Source of the DNA: Pseudomonadota bacterium
Lineage (GTDB): Bacteria; Desulfobacterota; Binatia; Binatales; Binataceae
Reading direction: 5' to 3'
Assembly (NCBI GenBank): GCA_021324755.1
Contig: JAJPIL010000014.1
Span: forward strand, 62,001 to 126,000
DNA: 64,000 nucleotides
Part shown: positions 32,345 to 41,917 of the stretch, piece by piece
How the letters are laid out: each line of letters opens with the position of its first letter
How positions within the stretch are numbered: the first letter of the stretch is position 1
Notes under the pieces: generated by a model
Seen by the model: the letters and a program-made list of their open reading frames with translations, nothing else
What the model was told of the DNA's origin: nothing
Databases searched by the model: none
Translations under genes and position numbers: made by a program

Positions 32345-32465
32345 TACAACGAAGAAAAGCCGAAAAACAGGCGTTTTTGAAAGCTCGTGGCTCCCAAAAC
32401 GCCCACTCGACGGTTGTTGCGAGGCGGGAGCGTGCAGAAAAAGCTAGCATTTGCAAGGAGTTTTT

Positions 32466-32501
32466 GGGATGAGCCGTGCGGGAGTCGAACCCGCGACCCT
32501 C
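32466..32501. repeat. Distal attachment repeat: copy of the tRNA-Lys 3' end
   Basis: Thirty-six bases identical to 41728-41763, covering the T-arm, the 3' acceptor strand and 4 bases beyond the discriminator of tRNA-Lys(UUU). The match stops at once on the anticodon side (32502 differs). The flank on the other side is also similar (GGAGTTTTT here, GGACTTTTG there). This is the arrangement left by an element that integrated into the 3' end of a tRNA gene and rebuilt it. Confidence 0.85.
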
Positions 32502-33318
32502 CGATAAAACTCGTAATAGTTAGCTAGCTATCTGTTCGCCGGTGTCTTTTTTGGGTAATAGAGTCGGATTCTTGGCTGTTTCCGCGCCCGCCAAGTGCGT
32601 CCTTGGCTGCCAGCGTCCTGTGTACTGTCTGTCAGACTTTCGGGATCTTGAAGGAGACCTCGCGAACAGTCAATCGGATTGGCTGCCACGTGGCCGTCAA
32701 GATCTCAGTCGTATCTATGGGGAATAACTCAACGATAGCAAGTAAACTAGAGCGGGAAGTGGAGCGCAGGCTTTTTCGAGACGCTAACCCGCTTTGTGCC
32801 GAAGGCGACGATCTACAGCTCGAGTAATTCGGAGGGGGCAAGCTTTGTGAGTAATGCGGGTTTGAGAACTCACCCGCGGCACGTTTTTTGCGCGCAGCAT
32901 GGCGCTCTCGACGGTGGGCCACGGGTTGCGCCGAGTGCGACCGATGTCCGGCCGTGGCGTGAAACCGCGGGCGGGGACACTCAGCTTGGTGCGCAAGCCG
33001 AGGGGAGTATTGACGGCGAGCGGCGTCATCTGGGGTTGTTGTTTTGCGATTCGGTTAACTCGGAGGAGATTACGGCGCATCTTGGCACTGGGGACTGGGG
33101 CGAGATTGCGATAGACTACCCCCGCTCCGGCTGAAGCGGTGGCGTGTTTTGGGAGTTTTGTGTCGCTTAAAGGACCTAGCGAGAGATAAAAACCTGTGCG
33201 CTCGTCCTCGATGCAAACGCCCGCGCTGCCGACACGCGGCGGAAGATCCTTGCCGGCCCGGACTAACAACCGAGGTCTGGGATCGCTGCAGATAGGCGGT
33301 TACCGATCGGCGCCACGG
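32502..33318. other. Non-coding or decayed part of the element
   Basis: About 800 bases after the distal repeat. Several ORFs of 60-160 codons overlap on both strands, none with a recognisable domain or a good start. I see no RNA gene. Probably decayed sequence. Confidence 0.35.
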
Positions 33319-33765
33319 TCACGTAATGCCACGCCTGGGTCGGCGTAAAGAACTAGCTAGCCGGGTCGCGTGCTCCTGCCCTCCTTGAAGAACGGAGTCA
33401 ATGCAGCGAAGGACAACACTCACCACGATCAGTAAAAACCCAAAACCAAGACAGGATTCGACTACCCACCAAAAAAGCTGGAGACATGACTTTAGTGTCC
33501 AAAGCTCGTGCTTCGCTAAGTTGCACGGCGCAACAAGGTTAGCGGAAAGCGCATTGCAGTCAATACGATCGATCTCTTTCCGCGCTGCCGCCTCGATGTT
33601 GTACTTCGCTTGGTATGCCTGAATGTCTTTGTCGTACAGAAACGGGCCAACTTGTGCTAGCCCAATCATGGCTGCAGCAAGTAGGACCCCTCCGGCTTTG
33701 AGGAGTCGTGAATAGCACTCTTCGCTTACAATCCATGCAGCTATGCGATTGAGACACTTGCTCAT
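33319..33765 (-). CDS. Hypothetical two-helix membrane protein
   Basis: A 148-residue protein. Helix 1 is about residues 22-42 (LLKAGGVLLAAAMIGLAQVG), followed by a loop of about 50 residues with two cysteines (RIDCNALSANLVAPCNLA), helix 2 about 95-117 (ESCLGFGFLLIVVSVVL) and a short basic tail. The hydrophobicity pattern and the cysteine pair make it look real, but no family is recognised and there is no ribosome binding site before the ATG at 33765. Two copies of an 11-bp repeat flank and overlap its start. Confidence 0.5.
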   Translation of the reverse strand: MSKCLNRIAAWIVSEECYSRLLKAGGVLLAAAMIGLAQVGPFLYDKDIQAYQAKYNIEAAARKEIDRIDCNALSANLVAPCNLAKHELWTLKSCLQLFWWVVESCLGFGFLLIVVSVVLRCIDSVLQGGQEHATRLASSLRRPRRGIT

Positions 33766-33779
33766 ATTATTGAGACACT
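33748..33779. repeat. Two 11-bp direct repeats, 21 bp apart
   Basis: ATTGAGACACT occurs at 33748-33758 and 33769-33779, spaced two helical turns, across the start codon of the membrane-protein gene. The first copy is inside its coding sequence. Such spacing is typical of sites for a protein that binds one face of DNA. Confidence 0.5.
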
Positions 33780-34191
33780 ACATTAACGTCGCTCTGCGAA
33801 AATATTGAGTTACCGCAACCGGGCATCACAGGCAATAGTTTTGCCGCTGGAGGCCCGTGCCGCCGCGCCAAGGCCTGCGGCACCGCGATAACGTTTAATC
33901 CCATTCAACGTGGAAGGTCCGTTCGGATTCCTGTCATATTTCTAACCCCTTTTGAAAATGAACACTTGTAAAGGCATTTCACGCACTAAACTAAGGATTC
34001 GACAACAACTATTGTTGCGGAGGCTGTTACGGTGTCTCTCCTTTTTCTCCTGGGGCTTTCCCCCATACTTTCCAGCATCCCGTCGACAGGGGTTATGATG
34101 ATCAGCACAGCCATGCAAATCGAGCAGCAGGCAACGGATCTGTACCAAACTTCGCCCTAGAGTTCCAATTTATAAAAAGCAGGAGAAAGCC

Positions 34192-34816
34192 ATGCCGTCA
34201 GGTGTCAAACAAGACCTCGAGAAGCGGCTCCAAGATATCATTAAGCAGCTGGTCGATAGCCACAAGGCGATTACCCAGGTTCAAGCGTGCGAGGCTGCTG
34301 CTAGTCGTGCTGGTGGCGAACTACGCGAACCTAGCAAAGTTGTCAATGCGCTGGTACACAATCCCGGCCGAGGCAAGGCCAAAGAGGTAGATGCAATAAA
34401 TCGTGCTGCATTCGTCCTCTTGTCTTCCCACTTACAAGGGTTCGTAGACCCTCTTCACAATGAAACGGCCATAGTTGCTCTTACCGGCAAGGTCGAGAAG
34501 CCTGAAGATACGATCAAGTTGATCAAACCGCGAAATTTCAATCTGCACGTGGACGTCATCGAGAAGATGTTTGCCTCCCTAGGGATGTATGACCTAATGA
34601 AGGACATTCACGGTAGATAATGTTTCAATGGGACCGTCCGCCAACGTCTTAAGGACTACCTCCACGAGAGGGACAAGATCGTTCACGGGACTCGGGTTAA
34701 TATTTCTCCCAGGCCAAGGTCGAGCGGAAGAAGTACGCTGAAACTCTCGCGCGGACAAATTGGACGAAAAAGTGGCGCATAAAGTGCAGGCAGTTACGGG
34801 CACCAAGCCGTGGTGA
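34192..34816 (+). pseudogene. RiboL-PSP-HEPN-type protein, broken by a stop and frame changes
   Basis: A 142-residue frame (34192-34620) begins MPSGVKQDLEKRL behind AGGAGAAAGCC. Its middle part (INRAAFVLLSSHLQGFVDP) resembles the RiboL-PSP-HEPN domain. After an in-frame TAA (34618-34620) the same frame goes straight on with FNGTVRQRLKDYLHERDKIV; this holds the HEPN catalytic pattern R-x4-H (34669-34686, RDKIVH). A probable C-terminus LDEKVAHKVQAVTGTKPW ends at 34816 in a further frame. HEPN proteins are often RNases of toxin or defence systems. Here the catalytic motif is cut off, so the gene is probably inactive. The family name is from memory of the pattern. Confidence 0.65.
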
Positions 34817-34836
34817 AACGTGAGTTACGTTGAAAA

Positions 34837-35619
34837 TCAAAATTCAGAGCGCTCGGCAAGCGCCTTCGCCGCCCGCCCGCTCGCGGTAGCGTCGAGCGCC
34901 CGGCCGTGATTGAGCCATGCCTGGAAGTTATTGGGCGAGGTCCCGACCACCACTGCCGGCTTGAAGCTTTCCGCTTTCATACCTGCGATCGCGGCGGCGG
35001 AAACATCATCGATGAGGCTCGGGCCGTGGATGCCCGCCGGCCGGATGGAGATGTAAGCCGTCTGGCGTTTTCGCGGGGGAGCCACTTGATCGCTTGCTCG
35101 ATCAAAACCATCTCGCCGGCATCGCGCTTGACGCCGAGGTCGAAGCGCTCGCAGCCCATCACGCGCAGCTGGTTTGGCCCGAATAGCTCGCGGGCGTTAA
35201 GATGACCGCGCTCATCCAGCGGCACCACCAGCGCCTGAATATGCGGCGTCGACTCGCCCAGATGCAGGCTTGCGGGAGCAGGGTTCCTGCCGTAGGGCTC
35301 CTTTAGCCACTTGAGGTTGAGCTCCACCCAGTCGTCGAGCCTCTTCTTCTCCCAGGTGCCGGCGGCGCTATAGTTATCTGAGCGGAAGTACTCGGGAGAC
35401 GCGTTGAGCAGGAAGTCAACCGCCACGGTAGCGTCCTCGTGCCGCTTCTCAGGCACAAGCGCCATCACGTCTACCTCGGGTCAAGCCCAACTAGCTCGCC
35501 TCTCGTGCGAGATCACCGATGGGTGTCTCACGGGTGCGGGCAAGATGGGCGGCGACCGCCGCAAGACCGTGCGGCCCGGTCATCTTGACCTTGCTTACCC
35601 GTAAAATCGCGTACGGCAT
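34837..35619 (-). pseudogene. MobV-type relaxase fused to RepB-like primase, fragmentary
   Basis: Three pieces in order on the minus strand. First, ATG 35619 starts MPYAILRVSKVK and continues to HLARTRETP, the MobV/Pre N-terminus, then stops. Second, the frame ending at 34977 (from 35468) has LNASPEYF, LKEPYGRNPAPASLHLGEST and PHIQALVVPLDERGHLNARE, the MobV core; the ligand motif HLDExTPHIH has changed to HLGESTPHIQ. Third, 34837-35085 has VVVGTSPNNFQAWLNHGR, the RepB/primase domain with the usual ETSPGN region changed. A MobV protein is normally over 400 residues, so large parts are lost. Relaxases nick plasmid or element DNA for transfer. Confidence 0.75.
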
Positions 35620-35823
35620 CTAATATGCCGTCCTCAAGCCTGTCAAAGGCTCGCTCTTGCTTGAAGCTTCCTTTCCGTAGCAGCGAAGCGAGGCGACGTA
35701 TGCCGGATAGACGTGTTACTACCTACTACACGTCGCCCGTGTGGGGTGATGGTGCGCAGCTCAAGGGAACCCCCAGACTCCGCCCTACCTGCTACCTAAA
35801 GGAAAAGCATGCCGCCGCTGCGC

Positions 35824-36079
35824 TTAGGCTGCCTGCGGTTTGGCCCGGTTGGAGGGATTCGGTTGGGCTGCCGCGGCGGTTTCGGCCTCGTCGCCGGAGC
35901 CGCGATGCACCTTCCGCGCGTGTGGCCCCTTGAGCGCCTTGAAGGTCTGCTGCGCAAGCCAACGTGCCATCACCTCCTCGGGTGCCCAGCGCCTGCCAAG
36001 CTCGCGCAAGCTTGGCAGCCTCCTTGAAGGCGTCGTAGACGTTGACCCGCACTTTGAGCTTAAGCGTCATCATCACCAT
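35824..36079 (-). pseudogene. Small basic protein beside the relaxase, frameshifted
   Basis: One frame starts MMTLKLKVRVNVYDAFKEAA (from about 36073) and a second continues LRELGRRWAPEEVMARWLA and KALKGPHARKVHRG to a stop at 35824; joined near 36009 they make a plausible protein of about 80 residues with an Ala-rich tail. Not recognised. It is just upstream of the relaxase in the same direction, where mobilization accessory (MobC-like) genes often lie. Confidence 0.45.
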
Positions 36080-36877
36080 CCTAGCTGCTTAATTAGCCGC
36101 TAGAAGTTCGCTGCTCATATGTTCAATTTCCGTATGTTCAATTTCCTCCTTACTTTGATTACTCGTCCTGGGATAGGCAGGAATTTCTTCGGGCTGCTTG
36201 AGACCCTATGGATTGTATGGAAAGGCGCGGGCCGACACTGAACTGATGCGAAGTCCACCTCCGGCACCGAGGTGTTTCGTTTCTGCGCGGGACGGGTCTA
36301 TGGACGGTCGGACTCAAGCGCGGCGGAATCGTTTGTAGGGTATGCCGCGGGACCTAAGCTGGGGGCTGGCTCTGAGCCACCCCGGAGTGGCACGCCCTTT
36401 CCCGTAGTGACACGGTCTTTCGCGGACGCCCCTGCTTGCGCGCCGGAGGCAGTGCTCTTCGGACCGTACCTACCGCTCATAGGCGCGGCGCAGGGCGCTG
36501 GCGTTGCCACCTTGCGGCCGGCACGCGCAGCGAAGACCTAGGGCCGCTCAACTCGCCTCATGTCGTAACCTTCCAAGCGTTTGCGCCAAGGCACGCCAAA
36601 GACATTTAGCGTTGGCCGGCTAGAGACGGCCAGCAGTAAGCGAGCTAGCGGTGCATCGGTAAGGTTGGGTGCTTACGGCTCCAGCAGAGATGGCTTAGCA
36701 GCAGGTCTTTCGAAACCGTGCGAGACCTCCACATGGCTAATGTAAAACCTGTCTCTCGTTGATTGTCGGGAATACCTTGGGTGTACGCGAGTTTTGCGCG
36801 CCGGTACGCTACTCAAAAGGCCACGCGCCGCGCAACATGGCTGCGTGTGGAGCGGACCAAGCGGTAAGACAGAATGC
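36080..36877. other. Non-coding part of the element
   Basis: About 800 bases with overlapping short ORFs on both strands (for example 36272-36541 plus, 36298-36510 minus), none with a recognisable motif or ribosome binding site. Nothing can be supported here. Confidence 0.35.
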
Positions 36878-37726
36878 TTAGAAGCAGGTAGTATTCCATA
36901 CTGCTCCCGTTTGAAGCGTTGTACAGGTAACAGTAGGCCTCGCGAGATGCGGGTTGAGCGGCAGCGGCCCGGGCGCGCTCACGCGGGCACCGGCATAAGG
37001 CGGGGCGATTCCTGCTGGCTGCCTGGATAGAGCCGCCATAGTGCGGTAAGTAAAATAGGCGACGCCCACCTCAGCTGCTGCTACCAAGGCGATACCTATA
37101 ACCGAAACCGCTGCGTTCAAGTAAGGGTGATCCTGCGACATCGAGCCCGAAGGCAAGGCGCTACTCGCTTGGATACGCGAGGGTGCTGCAAGACACCCAC
37201 TTTGTTGGGCTTGACTAACGACCGAAGCTAGATCGGGGCCAGCAATTCCCCTCCCGCAAGCGAAGGCAATAAACACCCTCGACTGCGTCGAGGTATCGGT
37301 CACCCATAAAAGGCTCGATTCTAATACCGGATGACCATCGAGCGTTTCAACCTCGTAAAGGTGGCCGATGGGACTACATTGGTTCCAGGCTGGATTGAGA
37401 ATGAAGGTTGCCCGGCGACAAGTGGCGAAATCCGGGCACTGTGGGGTTTGATAGGAAGGTTTTCCCCAGATCACATCCCCGGTTTCGTAGTGCAATACGA
37501 TGAAGTCTGGCTGAGCCCTAGGCGGAAACCCTGGGTAGGCGTTTATGTGACCCCAGGGCAGGTAGAGAGTATCGTGCTCGCCTCTACACCCCCGCGCGGC
37601 CCAGTGTTCGATGGTAGGTTGGAACGGTACCGAACTGATTACCGGCGAAACTGGTTGGACGTTTCCACACGCCGTTAGAATTGTAAGGCAAAGCCCAAAA
37701 ACCGACGCCACCCCCTTGGCGCTCAT
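36878..37726 (-). CDS. Hypothetical lipoprotein with C-terminal membrane helix
   Basis: A 282-residue protein with a lipoprotein signal peptide: MSAKGVASVFGLCLTILTAC, the lipobox being LTAC with Cys20. A GGGGGG ribosome binding site lies before the ATG at 37726. The exported part has seven further cysteines or so (for example CRGEHDTLYLPWG, TPQCPDFATCRRATF) and may be disulfide-bonded. Near residue 205-225 there is a hydrophobic segment (AVSVIGIALVAAAEVGVAYF), unusual for a lipoprotein. No family is recognised. It lies in the mobile element, so a surface or entry-exclusion role is conceivable, but that is speculation. Confidence 0.5.
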   Translation of the reverse strand: MSAKGVASVFGLCLTILTACGNVQPVSPVISSVPFQPTIEHWAARGCRGEHDTLYLPWGHINAYPGFPPRAQPDFIVLHYETGDVIWGKPSYQTPQCPDFATCRRATFILNPAWNQCSPIGHLYEVETLDGHPVLESSLLWVTDTSTQSRVFIAFACGRGIAGPDLASVVSQAQQSGCLAAPSRIQASSALPSGSMSQDHPYLNAAVSVIGIALVAAAEVGVAYFTYRTMAALSRQPAGIAPPYAGARVSAPGPLPLNPHLARPTVTCTTLQTGAVWNTTCF

Positions 37727-38515
37727 TGTGCCCCCCGTAGCCCGCGCTGCTCACTTGCCCAGAATCGCTTTTATACTAGCGTACTCTGTCCTACATATTC
37801 AATAAAAGCGATTGAAAATTCAAGACTTCTCGCTCAAATCGATGGTCAGTTTATGGAACTGCTACTGTGTGGGTATAGTCAGGCTCCTCATTATGGGCAG
37901 ACAGAGCAGCGGTTAGCACGCACAGGTTGCATAGACGGGGGTCGCAAATCGAGCTTGGATTGTAACGCTCACAACGCACCAGTGGCTCCGTGCGGGCAAG
38001 AACTCACGAGCACGCGAGCAAGACAAAAAAGGTGACAGGCGTTGGGGGAAAGCCGAGTGCGCCTCGGCATCCCACCGCTTTAGCGCCTTCGCGTGCGCCT
38101 CGATATCGAAGCCGTCAAAGCTAGGGTGGAGCGGTTCAATCCTAGCAAGCGTGGCGATACGGCCCTCGACCTCGACCCACGCACGTGCATTCACGGAAGG
38201 CCACAATCTCAATGCGGGCCAGTAGCTAATGCGCCTGCCATGCGACCCAAGCCCGTGATGCCTTGGGAATCATGGTTTGGATCGGCCGCAGCCGGATGCC
38301 AGCGTAGTCGAATCGATGGAACTCTACCCTTTCGTCTATCAGCTCCGGCGAAAAGAACCAAACAGCCTCAAACCCTTGTATTACCTACCCCGAATTGTGT
38401 AGATGCGCAAACGCGAGAGGTCGAAACGGAAATTCCGGCTAAAACGCCGAGGTGAGTACACCGAACGGACCGCAGACAAGGCGGTTAGACTGGCGAAGAA
38501 TTGGAGGGATTAAAA
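37727..38515. other. Mostly non-coding part of the element with coding-like fragments
   Basis: On the minus strand 38226-38384 reads as an uninterrupted, protein-like stretch (FEAVWFFSPELIDERVEF, AGIRLRPIQTMIPKASRAW) without a start codon, and 37913-38212 has FDIEAHAKALKRWDAEAHSA. These look like debris of a lost gene. No complete gene can be supported. Confidence 0.35.
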
Positions 38516-38710
38516 ATGCAACCAGAAAATTGGAAGGCTATTGAGGACGCCCATGCAATTTCCCTGGACCCTTCGGATAAAGCGCTACTGGATGAGGTCC
38601 AGAAGAGCCTTGGTTTAAAGGACGGAGAGTTCCTACACTTCCTGATTCTGATTGGGAAGGTTGCGCCAGCTGCCGTAAGACTAAAACAGGTGCGGCTTCC
38701 CAAGCCGTAG
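38516..38710 (+). CDS. Small hypothetical protein
   Basis: A 64-residue soluble protein, MQPENWKAIEDAHAIS at the N-terminus. The ATG at 38516 is behind a good GGAGGGATTAAAA site; the upstream in-frame TTG at 38501 is rejected. Pattern LDPSDKALLDEVQKSLGLKD suggests a helical protein. No family recognised. An ORF on the opposite strand overlaps it completely (38538-39056). Confidence 0.45.
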   Translation: MQPENWKAIEDAHAISLDPSDKALLDEVQKSLGLKDGEFLHFLILIGKVAPAAVRLKQVRLPKP

Positions 38711-39056
38711 TGCCCAGGTACAGGATATGGGTTGTGACGTGAACGAAAATTGGCAGGAGAGAATCGTAATCGATCCCGCGATCCATTACGGCTAACCATG
38801 CATTAGCGACACGCACGTGTCCGTCGACATAGTCGTCGGCAGTGGAGATGATTCTTGGCCAACCACCTAAGACCGCCTCAATCAACTTCGAAGCCTCCGG
38901 CTCAATGGTGTGGGCGATCGTAAGCTTGACCGCAGCCCCGACAGGATCGAGTTCCGTCGTGCGGAACGGGTCGCCTTCCGCCTTGGGCTCGGGCTTGTCC
39001 TGGTGCCGCCAACGGATAATTAGGCGACGCAGCGACGCCGGGGCCTTCGGATGCAT
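38538..39056 (-). CDS. Doubtful ORF, possibly a gene remnant
   Basis: A 172-codon frame. Residues about 35-110 look protein-like (PVGAAVKLTIAHTIEPEASK, RVANAWLAVMDRGIDYDSLL, FVHVTTHILYLG), but the last 60 residues are antisense to the small gene at 38516 and look random. There is no ribosome binding site. It may be a truncated gene whose real 3' end is lost. Confidence 0.25.
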   Translation of the reverse strand: MHPKAPASLRRLIIRWRHQDKPEPKAEGDPFRTTELDPVGAAVKLTIAHTIEPEASKLIEAVLGGWPRIISTADDYVDGHVRVANAWLAVMDRGIDYDSLLPIFVHVTTHILYLGTTAWEAAPVLVLRQLAQPSQSESGSVGTLRPLNQGSSGPHPVALYPKGPGKLHGRPQ

Positions 39057-39662
39057 AAGTACGGCTAGCCAAGGACGGAAGGAGCATTCGCCATGTTGCG
39101 CCGGCGCATGGTTGCTTGGCTAGTCTTCGAAGACCTCTGCGATACCGGAACCCGCAGCGCTTTTTTCCGCTTTGTGTCGCCTGACTCCTCTGTCAATCCG
39201 GCTTGCCTCCCACAGTCTGAGAAACCGCAGCCAAACGCTCTAAAGTTCTTCCGGCGAGCATTTTGCGGTTGCATTTGAAAGTCGTCGCATCGCTGCTCTT
39301 TTGCCTCCGCCTGCTTCCGCGTAAGCAGCTGAGCGGTTTGGTTCGTAAAATCCCAACCTTTCTTTCCCGCCTTGGCCTCTTCGCCTCGGTCTAAGAGGCG
39401 AGGGAGCAAAGAGAACCGGATGCACAGCGAAGCGGAGGTACCGATGAGCGGTGGGCAGCAATTCAAGGCCGCCGTGACAAGCGCGAGCGGCGTTGACCAG
39501 GGATGGCGTGGCGGTCTTGAGGGGAGCCTCGCAACCGGCGGCATGCGGCGGGGCACGTCCAACGTTGAGCATGAGCCGAGCCGGTGTCACTAAAAACACG
39601 AATATTTAGCGTAGCGCAAGTTGAAATTGGCCGAAGTACGTTGAAGATCGAGGGTTGTATAC
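39057..39662. other. Non-coding part of the element upstream of dndB
   Basis: About 600 bases with long overlapping frames on the minus strand (39065-39562, 39240-39599). They are rich in Arg and Cys and have no domain, so I do not call them. The last 60 bases become AT-rich and hold the dndB promoter. Confidence 0.35.
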
Positions 39663-39691
39663 TTGATAAGCGGAAAATGTTGATATACACT
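39663..39691 (+). promoter_or_regulatory. Promoter of the dndB-like gene
   Basis: TTGATA (39663-39668) and TACACT (39686-39691) with a 17-bp spacer, in an AT-rich stretch, 38 bp before the ATG. TGTATA just before the -35 (39655-39660) and TATACA over the -10 (39684-39689) form a short inverted repeat that could be an operator. Confidence 0.5.
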
Positions 39692-39729
39692 ATTCGAGTT
39701 TTAATTAATTCAAAGGAGTGACAAACAAG

Positions 39730-40830
39730 ATGATTCTTTCGTTCCCAGCGATGCGCGGCCGCATGGGCAAGCGGGACTATTTCGTGGCCATGGTGAAGCT
39801 CAGCTTGGTGCCTAAGCTGTTCAAATTTCGCGACTGGGCGGAGTTGCCGCCGGAGCAGCGGGCACAGCGCGTGATCCAGAAGAGCCGCATCCCGGAAATC
39901 ACCCAGTACATTCTCGACAACGAGGATGGCTATCTTTTCTCATCGCTCACCGCGTCGTTCGATTGCGAGCCGAAGTTCACGCCAGCAAATGGACGCGACG
40001 ACATTGGCATTCTAGAGATTCCGTTCGATGCCGATTTGGTCATCAACGATGGCCAGCACCGTCGAGCCGCGATCGATGAGGCGTTGAAAGAGAACCCCAA
40101 GCTTGGCGATGAGACCATCTCGGTGGTGCTATTTCCTTTCGAGGATCTTAGCCGGATGCAGCAGATGTTCTCTGACCTCAACCGCACGGCGCGTACCACC
40201 TCGAAGTCGCTCAACATCTTGTACAACCAGCGCGACCTGATGAGTCAGATCACGCTGACTATCATCGAGCGCGTCGAGGCCTTCAAAGGATTGGTCGACA
40301 AGGACCGAGTATCGCTTGCGCTGCGCTCGCCCAAACTTTTCACACTGGCCGCGATTTACGATGCTACCCATGCGCTCCTCGGTTCGGTGGTGAATGCCGT
40401 CTATGACGAGAAACTTGCACTGGCCCTGGAGTTCTGGGAAGAGGTGGCTAAAAACATGCCGGAATGGCAGAAAGTCAAAAGCGGTGATTTAAAGCCTATG
40501 GAGTTTCGTCAGGAATTTATCCATTCGCATGCCGTGGTACTATGCGCTCTTGGTTCGATGGGCCAGACGCTAATTTCGACCTATCCGGATGACTGGAAAT
40601 CGCGCCTGCGCGGGCTTCGCCAGATCGACTGGCGCAGAACAAACAAGGAATGGCAGGGTATCGCCATGTCAGGCTCGGACGTAGTAAATCGGCGCCAGAA
40701 CCGAATGGATACGGCATCATTCCTCAAGCTCAAGATGGGCCTTAAACTCACTCCAGCGGAAGAGCGGTCACTCAAGGGGGCCACCGACGTACCCTCGATC
40801 ATGAACAATCTTCGTAAGTTCGTCGGCTAA
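39730..40830 (+). CDS. dndB: DndB-like DGQHR-domain protein (solitary)
   Basis: A 366-residue protein matching the DndB family along its length. The hallmark DGQHR is at residues 107-111 (DADLVINDGQHRRAAIDEAL); other family segments are SFPAMRGRMGKRDYFVAM, the RVIQKSRIPEITQYIL region, QQMFSDLNRTARTTSKSL and the C-terminal SFLKLKMGLKLTPAE. The start is taken at ATG 39730, 11 nt after GGAG; the in-frame GTG at 39718 overlaps that site. In phosphorothioate systems DndB represses or modulates the dndACDE genes. None of those genes is in this window, so it is an orphan in a mobile element. It is intact in contrast to most neighbours, which suggests selection or recent arrival. A PC4-like gene follows after 44 bp. 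Confidence 0.88.
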   Translation: MILSFPAMRGRMGKRDYFVAMVKLSLVPKLFKFRDWAELPPEQRAQRVIQKSRIPEITQYILDNEDGYLFSSLTASFDCEPKFTPANGRDDIGILEIPFDADLVINDGQHRRAAIDEALKENPKLGDETISVVLFPFEDLSRMQQMFSDLNRTARTTSKSLNILYNQRDLMSQITLTIIERVEAFKGLVDKDRVSLALRSPKLFTLAAIYDATHALLGSVVNAVYDEKLALALEFWEEVAKNMPEWQKVKSGDLKPMEFRQEFIHSHAVVLCALGSMGQTLISTYPDDWKSRLRGLRQIDWRRTNKEWQGIAMSGSDVVNRRQNRMDTASFLKLKMGLKLTPAEERSLKGATDVPSIMNNLRKFVG

Positions 40831-40874
40831 GTCCCTGTGGCAGAGAACTAATCTAATCTTGGGGGGCAACTTCG

Positions 40875-41162
40875 GTGGATGACTCAAGCCAGCTTGTCGC
40901 GCAGTTTGAGAAGAATTCCAAAGAAGAAGTCCGAGTCAGTATCGACGATTTCCGCGGACGCAAGATCATCAACATCCGCGTCTACTACCGCTCCGACAGG
41001 GGCGAGTGGTTGCCCGGCAAGCAGGGGCTAGCACTTGCCGTGGATCGATACCGCGATCTTGCTGATGCTATCCTGAGACTTGGCGAAGCGCTGCAAGCGC
41101 AAAGCTTGCTTCCTTCCAAAGGATCGCGAGATGCCTTCGGAGACGCAGACAATCAAAAGTGA
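40875..41162 (+). CDS. PC4/p15-family transcriptional coactivator-like protein
   Basis: A 95-residue protein with a PC4-type single-stranded-DNA-binding domain: VRVSIDDFRGRKIINIRVYY (about residues 20-39), then the basic/aromatic DRGEWLPGKQGLALAVDRY and a C-terminal amphipathic helix LADAILRLGEALQ. This beta-beta-beta-beta-helix order is the PC4 fold. Bacterial members bind single-stranded DNA or structured nucleic acid, often on mobile elements. The start is GTG at 40875 behind GGGGGG. It lies 44 bp after dndB and is probably cotranscribed. Confidence 0.85.
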   Translation: MDDSSQLVAQFEKNSKEEVRVSIDDFRGRKIINIRVYYRSDRGEWLPGKQGLALAVDRYRDLADAILRLGEALQAQSLLPSKGSRDAFGDADNQK

Positions 41163-41727
41163 CCCGATGGGGGAGACAGATGCCGCGATATTGGATTGTT
41201 TGACCTAACATCGTCACGCACGCCATCGCGAGCCTACGACGCGCCCAAAGGTTGCTCGAGCAGTTCCGAAACGCCCACCAGCCGCACCCCCTCGACGACA
41301 CGGTAGCGGCCGTGATCGACCAAGCCCTAGCCGCCCTCGCCCCCCTTGAAGACGCCCTAGCTGCCAACAAGTCTGCACTTAAGGCATCCCCGCATCCGAC
41401 CAGGTCGTAAGGCATCCCCAACCTCAACTGAGCGCCTAAGATACCCCAAGCCGAAACTAAGGGGCGGGTTTTACTCTAGGCATGCGACGCTCGGGTCCTC
41501 ACCCCCCAATAGGCCGTCAAGGGATCCCTATGGAACCTAAAAGCTCATTTGTAACTCGACCCCCAAGAACGCTTCGCCGCCCCTTAAGCCTACCGAGGCG
41601 TCCCAACCTCTCCCCGAAGGCGGACTTCAGGGGCGCGGCCGTCTACATAACGTCTACATGCCCTTCCAGCGCTCAAGACATCTAACGACACGACCGGCGA
41701 AAAAGGCTTGATTTTGCGGGACTTTTG
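41163..41727. other. Tail of the element between the PC4 gene and tRNA-Lys
   Basis: About 560 bases. From 41213 to 41410 one plus-strand frame is open and helix-like (LRRAQRLLEQFRNAHQP) but lacks any start codon, so it is at most a gene fragment. Near the tRNA are two 9-bp direct repeats (listed separately). No integrase is found here, where one would be expected. Confidence 0.4.
41640..41659. repeat. Two 9-bp direct repeats near the attachment site
   Basis: CGTCTACAT at 41640-41648 and 41651-41659, 11 bp apart (one helical turn), about 70 bp from the 36-bp attachment repeat and inside the element. Short direct repeats at this spacing next to a core site are typical arm-type binding sites of tyrosine integrases. 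I did not find copies near the distal repeat. Confidence 0.45.
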
Positions 41728-41763
41728 GGGATGAGCCGTGCGGGAGTCGAACCCGCGACCCTC
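41728..41763. repeat. Proximal attachment repeat within tRNA-Lys
   Basis: The 36 bp identical to 32466-32501. It includes the 3' part of the intact tRNA-Lys gene, so integration left the tRNA functional. Confidence 0.85.
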
Positions 41764-41803
41764 TGATTAAAAGTCAGATGCTCTACCGCTGAGCTAACGG
41801 CTC
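41732..41803 (-). tRNA. tRNA-Lys(UUU)
   Basis: A 72-nt complete cloverleaf on the minus strand. Acceptor GAGCCGT pairs with ACGGCTC; D-stem GCTC/GAGC; anticodon stem TCTGA/TCAGA with loop CTTTTAA, anticodon TTT; T-stem GCGGG/CCCGC with loop TTCGACT; discriminator A. The 3' CCA is not encoded. It is the integration site of the element. Confidence 0.96.
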
Positions 41804-41917
41804 ACTTTCAAAACGAACCCGACAACAGACGTTTATATTTGCAGAAGCAAAGCCCGCTGAAAAGTGTTCTCCCGCTCTAGACGACCAACCGTCCGACAAT
41901 GAGTTCGGTTCCGCCGG

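Follow-up and report, generated by a model that had tools for sequence, protein, structure and literature searches.

What does a gene of the DndB family, whose curated name ('DNA sulfur modification protein DndB') ties it to a sulfur system, do directly in front of a gene of the PC4 family, and is the pair a system by itself? The question arises from the window, the whole stretch of 64,000 nucleotides analysed here (C19:62001-126000, in a genome of 3.07 Mb and 29 contigs), in which the first-pass annotation had noticed a full-length DndB with an intact DGQHR motif and its own promoter, followed after 44 bp by a PC4-fold gene. The features concerned, in window positions, are:

39635-39642, no strand: operator-like box AGTACGTT, one strand of which includes the clade word ACGTAC
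39663-39691, plus: promoter TTGATA-17-TACACT (TTGATA at 39663-39668, 17 bp, TACACT at 39686-39691)
39712-39718, plus: ribosome-binding site AAAGGAG, as read from the sequence
39730-40830, plus: dndB-family gene, 366 aa (PF14072, TIGR03233, TIGR03187), with the DGQHR motif and a ParB/Srx-like N-terminal domain
40875-41162, plus: PC4-family gene (single-strand-DNA-binding fold), 95 aa (PF02229)

That description was confirmed in every part. The window DndB scored 407.8 bits against TIGR03233 (cut-off 328), with the match spanning residues 8-349 of 370 and thus full length, and 393.1 bits against PF14072 (cut-off 29.1, E 1.3e-117), and its DGQHR motif is intact, so that curated cut-off, length and motif all place it in the family (TIGR03233/PF14072). 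The PC4 protein scored 51.8 bits against PF02229 (cut-off 25, E 5.8e-14), as a member of that family does, the gap between the genes is 44 bp, and the -35 box begins at 39663, where the annotation had its finding begin. The mechanical open reading frame of dndB starts at GTG 39718; the real start is probably ATG 39730, because conservation sets in at that codon and, in the related loci G004 and G015, the frame has no earlier start codon. The protein is 82–93% identical to copies from the same family and its C-terminus falls 7 residues short of the 373-aa copies (five of six aligned relatives). An AlphaFold model (mean pLDDT 78.6, pTM 0.61) gave nothing at E ≤ 0.001 in Foldseek, and a PDB sequence search gave no relatives up to E 1. 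In a second structural comparison rows 1–9 were all ParB/Srx chains, the N-terminal domain aligning best with ParB, KorB, Noc and sulfiredoxin at Z 4.5–6.4, values which, being under 8, agree with the published assignment of the modelled domain and are not proof of it. The PC4 fold binds single-stranded DNA. By gathering score and short length the window protein is like other PC4/p15 proteins (PF02229), from which it differs in having a DndB neighbour.

Searches of other genomes, the check on which the first-pass annotation had hung its idea of a linked pair, revealed that the pairing is real and recurrent. DndB matches were present in 9 of 57 related genomes (the window's own counted) and PC4 matches in 7 of the 57, at nine places, all nine of which adjoin a DndB copy. 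Across 148 genomes of the class (E ≤ 1e-20), PC4 gave the same nine places and no others, and DndB-like matches occurred at 15 places, six of them without a PC4 match. A scan of 84,980 species genomes used two peptide patterns, and therefore covered only part of the DndB family; it returned 77 stretches that reduce to 15 distinct loci, seven with PC4 beside DndB (five on known contigs, two new) and eight without. Five contigs of this series, L134-L137 and L143, coincide with those of G loci, and L141 coincides with L115. The new pair loci are L138 from Planctomycetota (DndB 74%) and L139 from Rhodothermaeota (DndB 69%).

With the window set aside, the pair was thus known from ten distinct loci: C15 (in the window's own genome), G002, G004, two in G009, G015, G023, L138, L139 and G140. 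Seven are from the same family, one is from Planctomycetota, one from Rhodothermaeota and one, G140, is a distant case in the window's phylum; the gap between the genes is 13–57 bp in the nine loci with an intact dndB. G001 is counted together with G002, its contig C37 being 100% identical to C6 of G002 over 8347 bp; this stretch, common to the assemblies of two species, reflects cross-binning or very recent transfer. At G140 a DGQHR-domain protein (120 bits against TIGR03187 and only 24 bits against TIGR03233, with the motif reading DMQHR) is followed by a doubled PC4 and then a methylase, and a decayed fragment lies at a contig end in G031. Co-occurrence of the two families was not enriched among 395 genomes of the phylum (PC4 in 50, PF14072 in 30, both in 3 vs about 3.8 expected); the genes are adjacent in all three genomes that have both, and a DndB-like gene was found at two of 29 PC4 loci checked in the phylum, the window and G140.

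An N6-type DNA methylase gene lies downstream of the pair in 9 of the 10 other loci (whole, cut by a contig end, or as a remnant) and a helicase in four (C15, G002, G023 and G140), the contig ending inside the methylase in another four (G004, both G009 loci and L138). Downstream of the PC4 gene were found:

C15: 1355-aa methylase, Mrr-N protein, 1117-aa PLD/SNF2 helicase
G002: ParA-like protein, 204-aa protein, 1349-aa methylase, helicase truncated where the contig stops
G004 and both G009 loci: methylase, incomplete because the contigs end within it
G015: 226-aa protein, then a 587-aa remnant
G023: a different PLD/SNF2 helicase, a methylase of Type ISP and the PDC-S68 protein
L138: methylase that reaches the end of the contig
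G140: 1204-aa methylase, DUF6577, AbiEii, helicase similar to that of C15 (79 bits)
L139: 207-aa protein without a Pfam match, then an unrelated ABC transporter; a pair without a methylase
Window, 41163-41728, plus: site of the relatives' methylase and helicase genes, none of which is present here (tblastn)

The cut helicase of G002 is 85% to that of C15, and the G015 remnant joins 199 aa of methylase to 155 aa similar to the helicase. The methylases are predicted to be N6-adenine specific because they match Eco57I/N6 families; that of C15 has the motifs GNPPW and AMGSGHF, and omega between the C15 and G002 methylases was 0.127. Both PLD and SNF2 domains are carried by the C15 and G023 helicases, the former with HGK...GSSNF, Walker A and DEAQ motifs. 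On gene content the operon looks like a defence operon. The G023 protein at L018:17606-19900 scored 774 bits against the PADLOC candidate PDC-S68.

The pair is therefore the conserved front of a methylase-helicase operon, and a gene named for DNA sulfur also serves with DNA methylation. This arrangement tells against the suggestion of the first-pass annotation that the two genes form a self-contained regulatory or defence module, which is improbable: the window and L139 have no methylase, as such a module would allow, and a methylase gene or its remnant follows in 9 of the 10 other loci. The enzyme pair itself also occurs without DndB or PC4, on plasmids of Rhodococcus, Halorubrum, Euzebya and Paenarthrobacter (4/4 regions examined, taken from 7 records covering at least 80% of the query), so DndB-PC4 is an accessory to a wider enzyme pair.

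Independence from phosphorothioation, which had also been proposed for the pair, is supported. A dndC match was found in none of eight genomes, the window's own (95% complete) included, in a search that had no positive control, since five of 14 control genomes matched and none over the cut-off; dndD over the cut-off was likewise found in none of eight genomes, own included, the sub-cut-off local matches reaching 20.8 and 19.5 bits, one of them in the window's genome. A normal dnd cluster elsewhere in the genome, of which the window gene would be an extra copy, was rejected on these results. In a DndB tree of 28 rows, taken non-randomly from top matches (L148, a 74-residue match, was excluded), all 11 dndC/D-linked DndBs fell on one side (support 100/99) and the 17 others, among them the window DndB, on the opposite side (100/99); the nine PC4-linked rows made one group (86/82). 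The other non-dnd rows were four C-terminally extended proteins, three Alphaproteobacterial methylase-/HTH-linked ones and one beside a 788-aa protein. When 10 of 40 listed rows (out of 980 + 44 records) were examined, nine had dndC/D beside DndB and one (H1) had N6-methylases.

The non-dnd rows differ among themselves. DndBs of L140, L141, L142 and L144 are extended at the C-terminus by about 80–150 aa, their promoters contain TAAACA repeats, and no dndA, C, D or E was found in these four loci; the L140 extension gave only a sub-cut-off SeqA match. At L149 (a Neorhizobium plasmid) and L145 (Rhizobiales), DndB is preceded by AGCTC repeats and followed by two N6-type methylase genes, an arrangement that by its gene order is a putative second non-sulfur one, without PC4. 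At L147:10001-13486 (Latescibacterota) DndB stands directly before the 788-aa protein, which has no Pfam match. Together, the tree and the neighbouring genes show an apparently non-sulfur DndB branch occurring with predicted N6-type methylases, PC4 or other partners. The window protein, L138, L139, L140 and L145 all exceed the TIGR03233 cut-off, and naming non-sulfur DndBs by that model would wrongly predict phosphorothioation.

The same searches bear on the idea, raised in the first-pass annotation, of an anti-defence gene acting on a chromosomal system, here taken as a pair that a mobile element would deploy against dnd. Its position on a small tRNA-bounded island would suit such a role, which we consider very improbable: with no dndC match and no dndD over the cut-off in eight genomes each, no target for it is seen; neither protein had a relative in two pattern-based scans of viral contigs, whose reach is limited to close relatives; the 44 DndB matches in phage collections are all less than 60% identical, and the two examined adjoin dndC/D; and the homologous loci resemble bacterial restriction-like operons. 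A viral origin was dismissed on the same empty scans.

Upstream regions were compared next to these gene contents. An alignment placed TTGACA-17-TACAGT in four of eight relatives (G004, G002, G023 and the first G009 locus), and TTGATA/TACAGT in G015 at the same alignment place as the window promoter; the promoters of the second G009 locus, L138 and L139 differ from this pattern. Word counts (110 bp upstream of dndB, 100 shuffles per group) gave nine copies of ACGTAC in the PC4-linked group, spread over 8 of its 9 promoters (best shuffled 6-mer 4.5 ± 0.6; 0/100), ten of TAAACA in 4/4 promoters of the C-terminally extended group (5.1 ± 1.0; 0/100) and 15 of AGCTC in 4/4 promoters of the methylase/HTH group plus L147 (5.5 ± 0.8; 0/100), odds which overstate independence since the promoters of a family are related. 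Seven dnd promoters gave weaker word signals (8/100 and 9/100 shuffles as high). Among 5-letter words of the PC4 group GTCAA and ATACA led with 11 copies each (2/100 shuffles as high), and CGTA/TACG was counted 18 times vs 10.4 ± 2.8 (6/500). ACGTAC occurs once in the window promoter, where the copy at the -10 has drifted, and is absent from G015. Inverted repeats were seen in some single promoter regions, none common to the set.

In Salmonella, DndB recognises the operator TACG-N10-CGTA in its own promoter and is a negative regulator of dndBCDE (PMC4507180, in the text accessible; negative regulation also in the accessible part of PMC8569181); none of the 10 upstream regions searched here contains that exact operator. 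As far as that text goes, the dnd protein (TIGR03233) and the window DndB are alike in family cut-off, DGQHR motif and ParB/Srx-type N-terminal domain, and also in being the first gene of a DNA-modification operon with repeated boxes in its own promoter. They differ in that dnd DndBs form a separate clade with dndC/D as partners, whereas the window's group has a methylase, a helicase and PC4 in its relatives and another box word. That each of three non-dnd groups repeats its own promoter word suggests autoregulation, autorepression being the likely form because the boxes sit near the -35 and -10, and points to a shared means of restraining dangerous DNA-modification operons, with one candidate operator word for each DndB group.

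Our preferred reading, with a probability of roughly 0.55, is that the pair is an autoregulated control cassette which heads a methylation-based restriction-like operon and has been orphaned in the window. In such an operon predicted N6-adenine methylation would mark the DNA and the HKD(PLD)/SNF2 helicase would attack. DndB, through its ParB/Srx fold, would most likely bind the ACGTAC-type boxes round its own promoter and repress the operon, by analogy with Salmonella DndB, and PC4, made from the same message, would most likely work either where the promoter is melted or on the single-stranded DNA that the helicase produces. Against this reading stand the single exact ACGTAC in the window, the persistence of the C15 enzymes beside a dead dndB, the L139 pair without a methylase, and the 8 of 15 loci of the DndB scan without PC4.

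The two proteins may instead be working parts of the defence, DndB as an NTP-gated switch or nickase and PC4 as a sensor of single strands that passes unwound invader DNA to the HKD/SNF2 helicase, both needed for restriction and not for transcription control. We regard this as unlikely, though a serious competitor. The pair accompanies a methylase in two phyla and in a distant case in the window's own, a profile of the window PC4 finds solved PC4 structures, the available part of PMC12704722 describes binding of ATP and GTP by a DndB-like protein, and nuclease or nucleotide-degrading roles for DndB are left possible in the accessible text of that paper and of PMC10853773. Conversely, the methylase-helicase pair lacks DndB and PC4 in all four plasmid regions, the C15 operon persists with its dndB dead, and repeated promoter boxes fit a regulator.

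The G002 methylase scored 991 bits against type IIG (PADLOC PDLC03620) and 239 bits against DISARM DrmMI, and the C15 helicase resembles DISARM DrmD, at 163 bits falling below the NCBIfam equivalog cut-off of 610. To our knowledge neither DndB nor PC4 is a part of DISARM. HKD-helicase/methylase systems, and DndB in dnd systems, are described in the available portions of PMC10853773 and PMC12839542. The BREX-related Type-2 system centred on DUF499 (PMC12839542) shares an N6-MTase and an HKD-endoDNase/Swi2-Snf2 helicase with the homologous loci only, not with the window; as presented in the text available, it is built on a DUF499 ATPase and DUF3780, with DndB-PC4 outside the described core. DUF499 and DUF3780 were absent among 19 neighbour proteins scanned with Pfam, a subset of neighbours on contigs several of which end early. 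CxC-ABC/DndE systems (PMC10853773, accessible part) share an HKD-helicase and a methylase and are kin to Dnd systems, but their methylase is a cytosine methylase where that of the pair loci is of N6/Eco57I type, and they are centred on an ABC ATPase-DndE pair, none of which was seen among the neighbours scanned here. The word PC4 does not occur in PMC10853773, PMC12839542, PMC12704722 or PMC12458937. The literature searched, which covered few subscription papers, yielded no description of DndB-PC4 with an N6-methylase and helicase and nothing linking PC4 coactivator p15 to anti-phage defense; a DndB partner for PC4 was likewise not found in what was accessible of it.

As to the window itself, the pair lies on a 9.3-kb island (32438-41771) bounded by an imperfect repeat, 72 bp long, of the 3' end of tRNA-Lys:

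32438-32509, no strand: left repeat, an imperfect match to the 3' end of tRNA-Lys and possibly an att repeat, 62/72 columns identical to 41701-41771
41701-41771, no strand: right repeat over the tRNA-Lys 3' end (tRNA-Lys gene 41729-41804, minus)

Inside it a Mob_Pre relaxase fragment was seen at 34977-35468; the Pfam scan of the island covered the pair and three other ORFs. The first-pass annotation had called the surroundings a decaying element, a reasonable if tentative description in view of the imperfect repeats and the relaxase fragment. When the relatives' methylases, helicases, ParA and small proteins were searched against the window by tblastn, the lowest E was 0.10 and no enzyme remains appeared. 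In the same genome the window thus has the head of the operon intact and no body, and C15 has the body with its head broken: there the methylase and helicase genes are intact and adjoin another copy of the pair, a damaged one, in which only a 3' stretch of dndB is left, with stops, and PC4 changes faster (pairwise omega 0.17–0.32; the C15 branch omega of 4.4 rests on a dS of 0.06 and is unreliable).

The window pair was said to be kept intact, and both genes are indeed under strong purifying selection. They contain no stop or frameshift, and along the window branch (DndB plus PC4, 448 codons) dN was 0.028 and dS 0.385, giving omega 0.073 (bootstrap 5–95%, 0.047–0.111), compared with 0.065 for the G002 and 0.027 for the G004 branch; with the 95th percentile at 0.111, the branch has been constrained for nearly all its separate history. 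That history bears on another doubtful alternative, that the pair is a non-functional leftover whose enzymes were lost recently and which has yet to decay. The absence of the enzyme genes, the fragmentary island, the seven residues missing from dndB, the higher omega than that of G004 (G002 being similar) and the decay of the C15 dndB would all fit a leftover; the open frames, the low bootstrap bound and the presence of a promoter and ribosome site argue against it. Under the control-cassette reading, the enzyme genes would have gone and left the pair an orphan on the small tRNA-Lys island, its intactness due either to recent orphaning or to continued regulation of something, possibly in trans. 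A trans target bearing the same promoter was sought and rejected: with up to one mismatch, the only match to the window promoter pattern in the 3.07-Mb genome is the pair's own, and nothing therefore indicates C15 as a trans target. A bolder proposal, possible and held only tentatively, is that DndB-PC4 heads an undescribed methylation-based defence as its control or sensor, responding to NTP and ssDNA, that DndB is a general controller captured by sulfur, N6-methyl and other systems, each with its own operator, and that the window orphan still acts in trans.

Upstream of the pair, the stretch at 39271-39541 has about 76–77% DNA identity to sequence upstream of the G002 dndB (L015) and to L018:8470-8721, beside a gene which we take, by eye, to be ArdC-like; it is probably shared mobile-element sequence.
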